In this document: piece after piece, positions 30,807 through 39,050 of the stretch | Numbering within the stretch: position 1 is the first letter of the stretch | Layout of the letters: every line of letters starts with the position of its first letter | DNA from: a beta proteobacterium MWH-UniP1 | GTDB taxonomy: Bacteria; Pseudomonadota; Gammaproteobacteria; Burkholderiales; Burkholderiaceae_A | Assembly (NCBI GenBank): GCA_036362785.1 | Contig: CP143625.1 | Coordinates: forward strand, 1,799,401-1,863,400 | Length of the DNA: 64,000 nt | Direction: 5' to 3' | Position numbers and translations under genes: made by a program | Notes under the pieces: generated by a model | Database searches by the model: none | What the model saw: only the letters and a program-made list of their open reading frames with translations | What the model was told of the DNA's origin: nothing

Positions 30807-30844
30807 TTGTCAGAAAGGATAAGCCCCCTTATGATATCTATCAT
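30807..30844 (+). promoter_or_regulatory. Predicted vapBC promoter with overlapping palindromic operator
   Basis: TTGTCA at 30807-30812 and TATGAT at 30830-30835 are 17 bases apart, a near-consensus sigma-70 promoter. The inverted repeat ATGATA-TC-TATCAT (30831-30844) sits across the -10, where a VapB or VapBC complex could autoregulate. The implied transcription start near 30842 excludes the upstream in-frame ATG codons as vapB starts. Confidence 0.65.
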
Positions 30845-30872
30845 TGAGACATACCAAAAGAGCCAAGCCCTC

Positions 30873-31106
30873 ATGGATAGCGCAAAAATTTTCCAAACCG
30901 GACGCAGTCAGGCAGTAAGACTGCCAAAAGCCTATCGCTTTGCAGGCAAAGAGGTTTACATCAAAAAAACAGATCAGGGAGTTTTATTAATCCCCAAGGA
31001 AGACGCTTGGTCGATCGTGGAAGCGGCTGTTTCTGAATTCGAGCGGGGGTTCAAAGTGGAACGGGAACAGGCCGGAAATCAGTCACGACCAGAGCTGCGT
31101 AAATGA
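30873..31106 (+). CDS. vapB: VapB-type antitoxin (SpoVT/AbrB-like DNA-binding domain)
   Basis: A 77-residue antitoxin. The N-terminal MDSAKIFQTGRSQAVRLPKA is the swapped-hairpin DNA-binding fold of the VapB/MvpA group; the C-terminal third is charged and would wrap the toxin. The ATG at 30873 was chosen for the family start and because the predicted promoter ends near 30842. The stop overlaps the vapC start as ATGA. Base composition here is clearly lower in GC than in neighbouring genes, as expected for an acquired module. Confidence 0.92.
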   Translation: MDSAKIFQTGRSQAVRLPKAYRFAGKEVYIKKTDQGVLLIPKEDAWSIVEAAVSEFERGFKVEREQAGNQSRPELRK

Positions 31107-31498
31107 AAATCCTGGACACCAATATCTGTATCTACATCATTAACGAGAAACCAAAAGAAGTGTTCGACCGCCTCCGTCAACACACTATTGAGGAAATCGC
31201 ATTGTCGAGTATCACTGTGGCTGAATTGGCGTTTGGCGTCGAAAAATCCCTTTCCAAAAAGAATCAAATTGCGCTTGAAAAGTTTATTGCTCCCCTCCAG
31301 GTGGTGGATTTCAATAGTAATGCCGCTTGGGTCTACGGAAGAATCCGTCATGCCCTGCAAAAGAAAGGGCTGCCCATCGGCCCCATGGATCAGTTGATCG
31401 CAAGCCAGGCGATTTCTCTAAATGCAACACTCGTCACGAACAATGAACGCGAGTTTCGAAGAATTCCGAACCTCAAGTTAGAGAACTGGCTTCGCTAG
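31103..31498 (+). CDS. vapC: VapC-type PIN-domain ribonuclease toxin
   Basis: A 131-residue PIN-domain protein with Asp5 in ILDTNICIYI, the acidic residue in SSITVAELAFGVEKS, Asp in GPMDQLIASQAI and the C-terminal TLVTNNEREFRRIPNL. This is the VapC/MvpT subgroup, whose members cleave initiator tRNA or rRNA; the target here is unknown. Co-translated with vapB through ATGA. Its stop overlaps the convergent mgtE stop by 4 bases, so it sits flush in the locus. Confidence 0.92.
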   Translation: MKILDTNICIYIINEKPKEVFDRLRQHTIEEIALSSITVAELAFGVEKSLSKKNQIALEKFIAPLQVVDFNSNAAWVYGRIRHALQKKGLPIGPMDQLIASQAISLNATLVTNNEREFRRIPNLKLENWLR

Positions 31499-33024: not shown

Positions 33025-35901
33025 TTAAGTTGCCGCTAACTGTAAACGCAATTGGCTCAGGACCGAAGCAGTTTCTGGCCGGACACCCCGCCAAAGACTA
33101 AACGCCTCGGCGGCCTGCTCCACCAGCATGCCCAGGCCATCGGCCACCATAGCCGCACCGGCCGCCTGGGCTTGTTGCAGAAAAGAGGTCATTGATGCCC
33201 CATACATCATGTCCACGACCAGGCGGGCATTGGCAAATCGAGACGGATGGATCGCAATCGTGGCACCCGCAAGGCTGGCCGATGTCGCATTGATCACGAT
33301 CTCATCTAACTGCCGTTTATCTGGATCTTCAGCGGAGAGCTGTTCCGCCTCGGCGAGTAACTCTAGCGGCATGGCCGACAGCCACTCGGAAGAAGTGGCA
33401 TCAATTGCCGCCCAACGGCTAACCACTGCTTGGGCTTTCTCAAGGTTGCGATTGGCAATTCGAATGTGGCGCACACCAGCAGCCCGCAGCGGCCCAATGA
33501 CCCCTTGGGCCGCACCACCGGCACCGATCAGCAAGACCCGCTGATCATCCAACGCGCCTGTTGCCCCCAGTAAACGTTCAAGATCTCTGACCAATCCTAT
33601 GCCGTCGGTGTTGTCTGCCGAGACAAAACCATTGGCGCCGAAGCACAGTGTATTGATCGCATTGGCGGCCATGGCCCGATCCGACACTTCCCAATCCTGA
33701 CTCTGGGCCAGCGCAAAGGCCTGTTCTTTGAGCGGCACCGTCAGGTTAACGCCACCATAACCTGCTTGAATCAACCGCTCTAGCTCGCTGGCCAGCTGCT
33801 CAGGCACGACTTCAATCGCCTGATAATCCATGGCCTGTTGGGTCTGGTCTGCAAATTGACGGTGAATCCATGGTGATTTGCTGTGTGAGATGGGATGCCC
33901 AAGAACAGCATAGTGTTCACTTAAACTCATCGGTTCTTCCTCCGTGGCAACACCTTGGGATGTGACGGCTACAAATTTTGCCTGCAGAGCAAGCTCCAAT
34001 GCATCGGCTGCCAAGAGCTCCACTTCTACTTCCACGCCGGGACTCAAGACGGGGGCATCAGGGCAGCGAAACACAATGGGGGCTCGGCGCAGCCGGAATG
34101 CACCCTCACGCAGCGCAACCGCCCGCTCACGCACCGACTTGGCCTGGGCAATGGCAGACCAAGACTCTTGTTCAATCAACCCATGCTGCCGACCAATCCA
34201 ACGCTGGGCCCAATAGCGCTCAATCAAATCCTGAAAATCGCCATATTGGTTGTAAACCGTGTCGAACTGGGTCACGGTCGAAAATAAATCGGCCTCATTG
34301 CCTTTAAAGACCGGCGGCCGCTGGCCCAGTACAGCAAGAATCTGCCACTGATTGATCAGGTCGCTATAACGCCGCAGTGGCGATGTTGCCCAGATGTAGT
34401 TGTCGACCCCAAGGCCCTGATGTGGGCCGGGTTGGGTCTGCATGCGCACACGGCCCATGGTCTGCACACGGTAGATTCCCGGTAATCGTGCAAGCGCCAA
34501 GACATCGCCCCAGGTCGTATTGGCCAAAATCATGAATTCAGAGACCAAGACATCAACGGGCGAACCACGGCGCCGCTCCACAATTCTTGGCACACCGTCG
34601 CCATGAAGGCTTGCCTCAGGGTTGTTGGTATTCCAATCGACGTAAAAATTAAAGTCCACCCGGCCTGTGATTTCAGGTTTGCCCCGGACTTGCTCGCGTT
34701 TTGCACGCAGGCCACGGGCAATCATGAGCATGGGTTTTAACCCGGCCCAGGGCAACGCTTGTGGATCAATCTCATCAAAGGCGGAATCAAGTACTGACTC
34801 CCAGTCCCCAAGGCGAATGTTTTTCTCGATTCGCACCCGCTCTACTTTGGAATAACTAGATCGCTTTTCTCCCGTCGCATCGAACTCCACATAAAGCGAT
34901 AACGCCGGCTGTTCACGGCCCTCGTCAAGAGAAAATGCGGCCACAATGGGTTCGGGCAGCATGGTGATCTTGTCGCCCGGAAAATACACGGTCGAAGCAC
35001 GCTCACGGGCAAACTTTCCCAGAGCACTCTCTGGCGTAATGCCAATGCCCGGTGCTGCAATATGAATACCAACCCGCCAACCACCGCCTTCGATTTCCTC
35101 TAAAGAAAAGGCGTCATCTATTTCCGTGGTGGTGCTGTCGTCAATGGAATAAGCTGGCCTGGTGGCCTGCGGTAAAGACTGCTTGGCAGCCAGCTCTGCT
35201 GTGGCCTGCAGTTCAGAATCCGTAATCGAACACCCAGTGCCTGCCGGAAAACATTGGTGCATAAACCGGGCCCGATGCAGGCTGTAGACCGAATGCAGTG
35301 CGCCACGGTCCAGCAGTAGTCGGGCCGGGTTGGTCTGCAATGCATTGGCCGCCGCCTCAAGCGCCTTGTAGGTGATCGATTGCTTGTCGGGCCGAATTAA
35401 TAACGACAACGCCTGCGCCTGTATCTCGGCTGGCATACCGCCCGCCACGATCGACTCTTGGAGCGCTTGCTGAGCCTCGGCCGCCAATCGCTTGCGCTCT
35501 GCCCCGGCGAGTGCGGCCTGCAACGACTCGATTGGTGCGCGCCGATATTGGCCACGGCCCTTGCGATAAAAATACATCGGGGCCTGGTGCAGGGCCAGCA
35601 GCAGCCCGGCCGACTCGGCCGTGCTCGGTGTTTCAGAAAAGACTTCTTTAGCAAAGTCTTGAAAGGCGAATTCTTCAGCTGGGGCGCACTCCCAAAGAAA
35701 CTGCGGCTCTAATTGCGCAGCAATTTCCTGAGCCTGCGGCAGCAAGGCATCCCGCGCCGGCGTGGTGAACATCAACAACACCGTATTGCGTTTGATTTTG
35801 CTGCGCTTGCCTGTGGGGGTCTCGACCTGAATGGTGGCATCGGCCTCGGAAAAAAGAGTGGCAACTTTAAAGCTGCCATCTTCTTCAAATAATACAAACA
35901 T
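33025..35901 (-). CDS. aroE: RNB-domain ribonuclease fused in frame to shikimate dehydrogenase (AroE)
   Basis: A single 958-codon open frame. Residues 1-657 are an RNase II/R-type exoribonuclease: a helical N-terminal region without an obvious cold-shock domain, then the RNB domain with IDDSTTTEIDDAFS at 253-266. Residues 658-958 are a complete AroE: HPISHSKSP (shikimate site), NLTVPLKEQAF with the catalytic Lys, DNTDGIG and GAGGAAQG (NADP loop). AroE reduces 3-dehydroshikimate to shikimate. No stop codon separates the parts, but a strong ribosome-binding site precedes the AroE ATG at 33930, so a free AroE could also be made. It lies 12 bases after mpl. Confidence 0.9.
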   Translation of the reverse strand: MFVLFEEDGSFKVATLFSEADATIQVETPTGKRSKIKRNTVLLMFTTPARDALLPQAQEIAAQLEPQFLWECAPAEEFAFQDFAKEVFSETPSTAESAGLLLALHQAPMYFYRKGRGQYRRAPIESLQAALAGAERKRLAAEAQQALQESIVAGGMPAEIQAQALSLLIRPDKQSITYKALEAAANALQTNPARLLLDRGALHSVYSLHRARFMHQCFPAGTGCSITDSELQATAELAAKQSLPQATRPAYSIDDSTTTEIDDAFSLEEIEGGGWRVGIHIAAPGIGITPESALGKFARERASTVYFPGDKITMLPEPIVAAFSLDEGREQPALSLYVEFDATGEKRSSYSKVERVRIEKNIRLGDWESVLDSAFDEIDPQALPWAGLKPMLMIARGLRAKREQVRGKPEITGRVDFNFYVDWNTNNPEASLHGDGVPRIVERRRGSPVDVLVSEFMILANTTWGDVLALARLPGIYRVQTMGRVRMQTQPGPHQGLGVDNYIWATSPLRRYSDLINQWQILAVLGQRPPVFKGNEADLFSTVTQFDTVYNQYGDFQDLIERYWAQRWIGRQHGLIEQESWSAIAQAKSVRERAVALREGAFRLRRAPIVFRCPDAPVLSPGVEVEVELLAADALELALQAKFVAVTSQGVATEEEPMSLSEHYAVLGHPISHSKSPWIHRQFADQTQQAMDYQAIEVVPEQLASELERLIQAGYGGVNLTVPLKEQAFALAQSQDWEVSDRAMAANAINTLCFGANGFVSADNTDGIGLVRDLERLLGATGALDDQRVLLIGAGGAAQGVIGPLRAAGVRHIRIANRNLEKAQAVVSRWAAIDATSSEWLSAMPLELLAEAEQLSAEDPDKRQLDEIVINATSASLAGATIAIHPSRFANARLVVDMMYGASMTSFLQQAQAAGAAMVADGLGMLVEQAAEAFSLWRGVRPETASVLSQLRLQLAAT
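33928..33943 (-). promoter_or_regulatory. Internal ribosome-binding site and ATG at the AroE boundary of the fusion
   Basis: Read on the minus strand, GGAGG (33943-33939) is followed after 8 bases by ATG (33930-33928), exactly where AroE homology begins (MSLSEHYAVLG). The preceding codons read through in frame from the RNB domain. This is good evidence that aroE was, or still is, translated independently. Confidence 0.75.
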
Positions 35902-35913
35902 GGTCTGATCGCT

Positions 35914-37368
35914 TTAGTGGCCAACACCCGAGCGCGGTGTCTGACACCCGGCCGCACCCGACCGCAGGGCCGAAAGAATTTTTTCGTGAATTCCGCCAAA
36001 ACCGCCATTGCTCATGACCAAGATGCGATCACCGGGTTTTGCCGCTAAGGCAATTGCAGCCACCAAATGGTCCATGTCTGGGTGAACCTGAGCGCGCAAC
36101 CCAAGCGGCGATAAAGCCGAAGTCAGGTCCCAATCGATACCCCCTGAATAGGCAAAAGTCAGTTCAGCATCCGTCAGGCTGTCGGCAAGCTTGGCCGCCA
36201 TGACCCCAAGCTTCATGGTGTTGGATCGCGGCTCGATCACCGCAAGGATGCGGCCAGACTCTCCGGCACGGCGCATCTGGTCTTTTAATCCCGCTACTGT
36301 CGTCGCGATGGCCGTTGGATGGTGGGCAAAATCATCAAGTACGGCAATGCCGTTGACATCGCCGCGCACTTGCATGCGGCGCTTGACACCTTCAAAGCGC
36401 GCTACCGAGGCACAAGCCGTGGCTGCCGGCACACCATAAGCAACCGCCGCAGCAATCGCTGCCAAGACATTACTGCGATTGTGCGCACCAGTCAGGGGGC
36501 TTTCCACATGGCCCACGATCTGCCCTTCGAACCAAACATCGAATCGGTCCATGCCATCAATCGATCTTGCTGAATTGGGAGCTGTCTTGTTGTCGGGCTG
36601 GAACTCATGAATGCACCAGCCTGCCGGGTCGTTGAATGCGTTGACCGGTGTCCATGCGCCCTTGGCGATCACACGGGCAAGGGCGGACTCTTGATGGTTC
36701 ACAATCAGCCTGCCTTGCGAAGGCAGAGTCCGTACCCAATGGTGGAACTGAGTCTCAATGGCCGCAAGATCTGGAAAAATATCGGCGTGATCGAATTCAA
36801 GATTGTTCAGAATCGCGATCTCTGCGCGGTAATGTAAAAACTTTGATCGTTTGTCGAAAAAGGCGGTGTCGTATTCGTCGGCCTCGATCACAAATGGCGG
36901 CCGGGTATTACTGGCTGCCGACAATCGCGCAGAGACGCCGAAATTTTCCGGAACGCCGCCAATCAAAAAAGATGGCGAAAGGCCAGCGTCTTCCAACAGC
37001 CAAGCCAGAATCGAACTTGTGGTGGTCTTGCCATGGGTGCCTGACACCGCAAGGATACGATGGGTACTCAAAATATTTTCAGCCAGCCACTGGGGCCCGG
37101 ACTGTAGCCGCGCCCCCTGATTCAACAGCGCTTCAATCAAAGGCATGCCCCGACGGGCCACATTACCCACCACCCAGACATCGGGCTTAAGCGCCAATTG
37201 ATCTTCAGAAAAGCCCTCCATCAGGGTGATGCCCGCCTGCTCGAGCTGGGTGCTCATTGGCGGGTAGACATTGGCATCGCAGCCCGTGACTTTGTAACCG
37301 CAGGCGCGGGCCAATTGCGCCACACCGCCCATGAAGGTGCCGCAAATACCAATAATGTGAAGATGCAT
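35914..37368 (-). CDS. mpl: UDP-N-acetylmuramate:L-alanyl-gamma-D-glutamyl-meso-diaminopimelate ligase
   Basis: A 484-residue Mur ligase family enzyme that reattaches recycled murein tripeptide to UDP-MurNAc. The N-terminus is HIIGICGTFMGGVAQLARAC, the ATP loop is VSGTHGKTTTSSI, and EADEYDTAFFDKRSKF and FDDFAHHPTAI are Mpl-type motifs. It works in the same recycling route as AmpD and AnmK, both in this window. First gene of mpl-(RNB-AroE)-mgtE. Its start is only 15 bases from the divergent hypothetical gene. Confidence 0.95.
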   Translation of the reverse strand: MHLHIIGICGTFMGGVAQLARACGYKVTGCDANVYPPMSTQLEQAGITLMEGFSEDQLALKPDVWVVGNVARRGMPLIEALLNQGARLQSGPQWLAENILSTHRILAVSGTHGKTTTSSILAWLLEDAGLSPSFLIGGVPENFGVSARLSAASNTRPPFVIEADEYDTAFFDKRSKFLHYRAEIAILNNLEFDHADIFPDLAAIETQFHHWVRTLPSQGRLIVNHQESALARVIAKGAWTPVNAFNDPAGWCIHEFQPDNKTAPNSARSIDGMDRFDVWFEGQIVGHVESPLTGAHNRSNVLAAIAAAVAYGVPAATACASVARFEGVKRRMQVRGDVNGIAVLDDFAHHPTAIATTVAGLKDQMRRAGESGRILAVIEPRSNTMKLGVMAAKLADSLTDAELTFAYSGGIDWDLTSALSPLGLRAQVHPDMDHLVAAIALAAKPGDRILVMSNGGFGGIHEKILSALRSGAAGCQTPRSGVGH

Positions 37369-38566: not shown

Positions 38567-38600
38567 AATCCACGGCATCGAATCCTTGGGAGGGTTGCCG

Positions 38601-39050
38601 ATGTCGTCATCTTCGTTGATCTGGGTCCTACATGGCCCGAACTTGAATCGACTTGGCCTTCGCGAGCCCCAAATTTATGGGACCACCACGCTCGACCAAA
38701 TTAACCAAACCCTGGTTGAAGAGGGCAAATCCTTGGGGCTAAATGTCGAGTGCTTCCAAAGCAACCACGAGGGCGAGATCATTGATCGCCTGCACCAGGC
38801 ACCCGCCAAAGGCGTGAGCTTTATCCTGATTAACCCCGCCGCTTTTACGCACACCAGCGTCGCAATTCGGGATGCGATGGCCGCTGTCGCCATTCCTTTT
38901 GTCGAAATCCACCTCTCCAATGTCCACCGTCGCGAGGCATTTCGCCACCACTCCTATTTTTCCGACCTGGCCGAAGCCGTGATCTGCGGCCTTGGGCCAG
39001 CGGGCTATCAGGCCGCTTTGCGGTTTGCTGCCCAGAAAGTTCACCAATAA
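38601..39050 (+). CDS. aroQ: 3-dehydroquinate dehydratase, type II
   Basis: A 149-residue type II dehydroquinase (third step of the shikimate pathway). Motifs are [19 protein letters not shown] at the N-terminus (catalytic Arg and the Tyr of the lid), [10 protein letters not shown] and [17 protein letters not shown]. The ATG at 38601 is preceded by GGGAGGG and 6 bases of spacing. TAAAAT over the tlpA stop is a possible -10. Position upstream of accB-accC is widely conserved. Confidence 0.96.

Follow-up and report, generated by a model that had tools for sequence, protein, structure and literature searches.

In the 64,000-nucleotide stretch of DNA analysed here (the window), a gene for a protein of the RNase II type (RNB) and the gene for shikimate dehydrogenase (AroE) are joined in one reading frame without a stop codon between them. 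Very probably, this is a real, vertically inherited fusion that arose by stop loss and yields a protein of two domains that work independently of each other, the gain being compaction and co-expression. The fusion combines two known families into a new domain combination; a full-text literature search found no report of an RNB-AroE domain combination, and a paper that it listed, on RNA editing in Streptococcus (PMC11472039), is unrelated to judge by its title.

The fused open reading frame (33025..35901, reverse strand, as are all its parts) starts with ATG and translates into 958 amino acids plus a stop codon, and the same join without a stop is present in relatives. Pfam matches the RNB domain in two stretches: the first (34462..35157, profile positions 8-227) carries D254, E260, D262 and D263, the second (34327..34464, profile positions 279-324) carries R510/R511, and approximately 50 profile positions between them have no match. 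In the predicted model the RNB part ends with five strands at residues 590-648 (33958..34134), which are probably S1-like. They are followed by a linker (residues 649-661, 33919..33957) and by a complete AroE (residues 662-958, 33028..33918), identified by profile matches and conserved residues. A Mur ligase family gene (35914..37368, reverse strand), which we take to be Mpl, is encoded 12 bases ahead of the fusion and is a probable operon partner; a gene for an MgtE-type transporter comes after the fusion. Approximately 2.7 kb from the fusion, the opposite strand encodes a class II dehydroquinase (AroQ, 38586-39050, forward strand), the pathway step preceding AroE. The window also contains a gene with a MazE-type antitoxin domain followed by a PIN-domain gene (30807-31498, forward strand), likely a VapBC-like toxin-antitoxin pair.

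The RNB part scores 172.8 bits with the Pfam profile RNB (PF00773, cut-off 29.3), the better of the two stretches covering residues 249-480, and stays below the RNase R and RNase II equivalog cut-offs (TIGR02063, 94.9 of 597.85; NF003455, 93 of 542). By these curated cut-offs it is a predicted divergent exoribonuclease of the RNase II superfamily, not RNase R or RNase II proper. A second RNB match is located elsewhere in the genome, within an 805-amino-acid frame. In an alignment of 67 RNB rows D254, E260, D262, D263, R510 and R511 are invariant; positions were matched to the RNase II residues D201, D207, D209, D210 and R500, which we take to be the metal ligands and the catalytic arginine. 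The D207 position is occupied by glutamate (E260, 35124-35122) and not aspartate in all 67 rows, so nuclease activity is uncertain. Since both fused and unfused proteins carry this glutamate, the trait predates the fusion. Glutamate at a metal-ligand position together with an unmatched middle of the Pfam domain marks the RNB rows, and by sequence the type with Glu260 possibly represents an unstudied nuclease subfamily. A search for viral relatives of the RNB part gave one stretch matching a pattern, and none was confirmed.

By sequence (E 2.7e-26), the RNB part is matched best by structure 2r7d of Deinococcus radiodurans, presumably the RNase II-family protein DrII. This structure is also among the top fold matches (TM 0.76, normalised by target length, with 20% identity over the fold alignment); its RNB domain, like that of the fusion, is covered by two separate matches and has a PGPH..G motif. 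It differs in lacking AroE and, like RNase R, in having aspartate at the position of Glu260. Yeast mitochondrial Dss1 (6f3h) gives a fold match that spans 805 columns with an rmsd of 23 across the whole alignment, and it has no metabolic enzyme attached; structures of RNase R and Dis3L2 match as well. According to the available part of one source, DrII has a helix-turn-helix (HTH) in place of both cold-shock domains, and Dss1, an RNase II-type enzyme, carries winged-helix and HTH domains where a cold-shock domain would otherwise be (PMC5758563). The RNB part resembles this DrII/Dss1 type in its fold relationship and in being matched in two stretches. At the N-terminus, where this type would have winged-helix/HTH domains, the predicted model of the whole protein has strands and then helices.

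The AroE part is matched by Shikimate_dh_N (residues 666-752), Shikimate_DH (782-831) and SDH_C (922-952) in Pfam, and end to end (residues 662-957) by the NCBIfam shikimate dehydrogenase model NF001310 with 304.5 bits against a cut-off of 221. N719, K725, N750, T765, D766 and Q929 are invariant in 38 of 38 aligned rows; these include the catalytic lysine and aspartate, presumably corresponding to K65 and D102 of E. coli, and substrate residues. The AroE N-domain was detected in 25 of 26 family genomes, as a single match in 24 and as two in G015, which are pieces close to contig ends; G025 has none. The fusion is thus the sole AroE detected in fused genomes, and because no other AroE N-domain was found there, it must supply AroE unless the internal start described below also does so in the window's genus.

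The junction is open in all seven examined genomes of the window's genus and in all 11 of its sister genus, where direct translation places both domains within one stop-free frame. The gene is split across contigs in G002 and G015, and in each a frame still spans the junction; in G015 the contig breaks off after the first 58 positions of AroE. In G012 (83% complete) the first part of the fusion lies in a different frame. A variety of isolate names occurs among the 17 named records from both genera, including that of the cultured strain LSUCC0115 of the sister genus; this strain is a member of the MWH-UniPo clade (PMC6952679). As given in the available portion of another source, the MWH-UniP1 aquatic group comprises the genera UBA2463 and UBA954 (PMC12381374). 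One record of the window's genus carries the name UBA954, and going by that portion, the window's genus is probably UBA954 and the sister genus UBA2463. A metagenome-assembled record titled Bordetella parapertussis (L051, genome G007) bears a fusion of the sister-genus type and groups with that genus; its organism label looks wrong.

Among eight genomes of the third genus of the family (70-92% complete) no fusion was found. G019 has RNB, two TAA codons and AroE, all in one frame, and G018 has RNB and AroE as separate neighbours. Five genomes (G020-G024, 70-87% complete) contain AroE with no match to the fusion-type RNB beside it and may have lost the nuclease; G025 gave no AroE match. Elsewhere in the Burkholderiales the orthologous RNB and aroE genes also occur as unfused neighbours on one strand that encode separate proteins; in G089, G043, G327, G983 and G984 they share a frame with stop codons in between. 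A tree was calculated from 67 hand-picked RNB rows, for which 42 unfused loci were chosen and the cut genes of G015 and G317 were excluded. The window's genus and its sister genus group together (92/85); the third genus has a long branch and a deviating composition, and its position is not firm. One shared fusion event for both fused genera is the simplest reading, which is not proved since their linkers are unequal in length.

Among the matches listed for 300 genomes of the order, just one more runs over the full length without a stop, that of G197, which belongs to another family (f4). In its genus (g103) the junction is open in seven of eight genomes; six have the fusion as one open reading frame and in G317 it lies on a contig that is cut, while the RNB and AroE genes of G313 are separate and in different frames. 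The fusions of this genus and the unfused G313 form their own clade (100/99) amid unfused relatives. Since the two sets of fusions occupy separate clades, the tree argues for at least two origins, the fusion in the second family probably having arisen independently. No other f4 genus has a fusion among the matches listed for 268 f4 genomes, and no further fusion was seen among those listed for 369 genomes of the class, in which matches from beyond the order covered AroE only. A survey for AroE only gave a match in 155 of 160 order genomes; among the 148 that are in the matches listed, AroE frames longer than 900 occur only in five sampled members of the window's genus and its sister. The surveys of the order, the class and the families f4 and f19 comprise the best matches listed, so that a low-scoring fusion with a split match may escape them.

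A fusion was accepted only if one stop-free open reading frame contains both domains, as tabulated frame lengths can run through stops. A third fusion proposed for an f19 genus (g451; G980 and G982, tabulated open frames 1000 and 1078) was rejected after direct translation gave separate open reading frames. The long AroE frames of the class genomes G702, G803, G782 and G726 were discarded as well, their upstream portion looking by eye like out-of-frame translation of GC-rich DNA, as were the long RNB frames of G256, G409 and G525, whose open reading frame is without AroE.

The sequence-only reading had described an RNB frame that runs without a stop into a complete AroE, and this is borne out by the 958-codon frame, by the profile matches and by all 18 genomes of the two genera. 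It had proposed loss of the RNB stop codon as the origin, which the RNB-TAA-TAA-AroE arrangement of G019 backs, and a search of related genomes for the same fusion, which is now known from three genera.

We propose that, before the window's genus and its sister genus split, one or more stop codons were lost between tightly packed genes in the same frame, the exact event being one we infer. A ribosome past the RNB part would find no stop and continue into AroE, so the fusion protein should be made whenever RNB is translated, as follows from the sequence. The product would be an RNase II-superfamily part related to DrII and Dss1 and, tethered to it through a short flexible linker, a complete AroE. 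The conservation of active-site residues, together with purifying selection, suggests that each part works on its own substrate independently. Genome compaction and the packing of operons may have favoured the fusion or allowed it to persist, and compaction and co-expression rather than regulation are most likely the gain. The linker may also be cleaved.

Alternatively, the arrangement could be mainly translational, read-through being a by-product and the working AroE coming from an internal start; as the main explanation this is unlikely, although it is compatible with the stop-loss fusion in the window's genus. In the window an SD-like CGGAGG (33939..33944, with GGAGG at 33943-33939; five of the six letters of AGGAGG) is located 8 bases ahead of an internal ATG (33928..33930, codon 658) at the AroE boundary. 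All seven loci of the genus have a start codon at this boundary (ATG in six, TTG in L006, for which the spacing was read by eye), and it is preceded by an AGGAGG-like site with six of six letters in five loci and five of six in L004 and L005. In L007-L010 the perfect AGGAGG at the boundary ATG is unmatched by the other in-frame ATGs (19-21 per gene); in L004 and L005 the boundary ATG ties at five of six with one and two other ATGs. Because these loci are related, they are one line of evidence and not seven. Only two of the 11 sister-genus loci (L023, L025) have an in-frame ATG in the 15 codons ahead of AroE, and only one of the seven fused g103 loci (L095) has a methionine at this distance. 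Furthermore, the junction is open in all, yet a useless by-product should gather stops or frameshifts. That an internal start is kept, as the sequence-only reading had it, thus holds for the window's genus and fails as a general rule. With a nearby ATG in only two of 11 loci, the fusion itself must be the AroE in most of the sister genus, and free AroE is not generally needed; the internal start is mostly gone there, leaving the fusion as the only AroE detected. In the window's genus some free AroE may additionally be made from the internal ribosome-binding site and its start codon. The choice between GAG and GAA codons was uninformative as a test for selection on the SD site, GAG already making up 68% of glutamate codons.

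Selection for functional coupling, with AroE tuning the nuclease through NADPH or shikimate binding or the nuclease placing AroE on RNA, is decidedly improbable. The fusion is maintained across deep divergence with at least two origins, and the second independent fusion could be a sign of such selection. Both parts also appear to be under purifying selection: among 10 pairs (two g103 pairs gave no value), dN/dS in computable pairs was approximately 0.05-0.22 in both parts, rough values as most dS exceed 1. Values for RNB and AroE were 0.068 and 0.073 for L008/L010, and 0.118 and 0.168 for L026/L028. A low synonymous divergence in the linker of L008/L010 (0.077 versus 0.765 and 0.782) was set aside, being absent in L008/L009 and based on 22 codons only. 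Against coupling, the linker is poorly kept: counted by eye, it is approximately 6-13 residues shorter in the sister genus than in the window's genus, and in g103 it varies between a short form (L096) and long ones with much aspartate and glutamate (L071, L093, L098). The predicted model (pLDDT 86, pTM 0.58, linker pLDDT below 50 at residues 653-659) suggests well-formed domains whose relative placement is unsure and gives no fixed domain arrangement. In addition, RNB and AroE are apart in nearly all relatives among the matches listed for the 300 order and 268 f4 genomes. It is very improbable that an exoribonuclease tied to and regulated by an AroE that reports the supply of NADPH or aromatic precursors evolved at least two times; if true, RNA turnover would track the biosynthetic state. 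Regulation may link RNA decay to aromatic synthesis, but no observation made here calls for such a link. The suggestion that a sequencing or assembly error deleted a stop codon is rejected as having next to no chance of being correct, because the same open junction is found in 18 family genomes and in seven of another genus, under many isolate names and in one cultured strain. Nothing was found in favour of such an error, although the window's genome by itself would not have excluded it.

AroE is known from other multi-domain proteins in the PDB (dehydroquinate dehydratase/AroE, 2gpt; chorismate mutase/AroE, 3fbt; pentafunctional AROM, 7u5s). Their partner domains act in aromatic synthesis, whereas the one in this fusion is a member of an RNase family. 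The fusion is present in every examined genome of two genera of freshwater and coastal bacteria with small genomes, and it appears to have evolved at least twice. Separate in-frame genes, a fusion with an internal start and a fusion without one are visible together as stages of the process. With a DrII-like nuclease joined to the sole AroE detected in these cells, the function of this nuclease type becomes testable.
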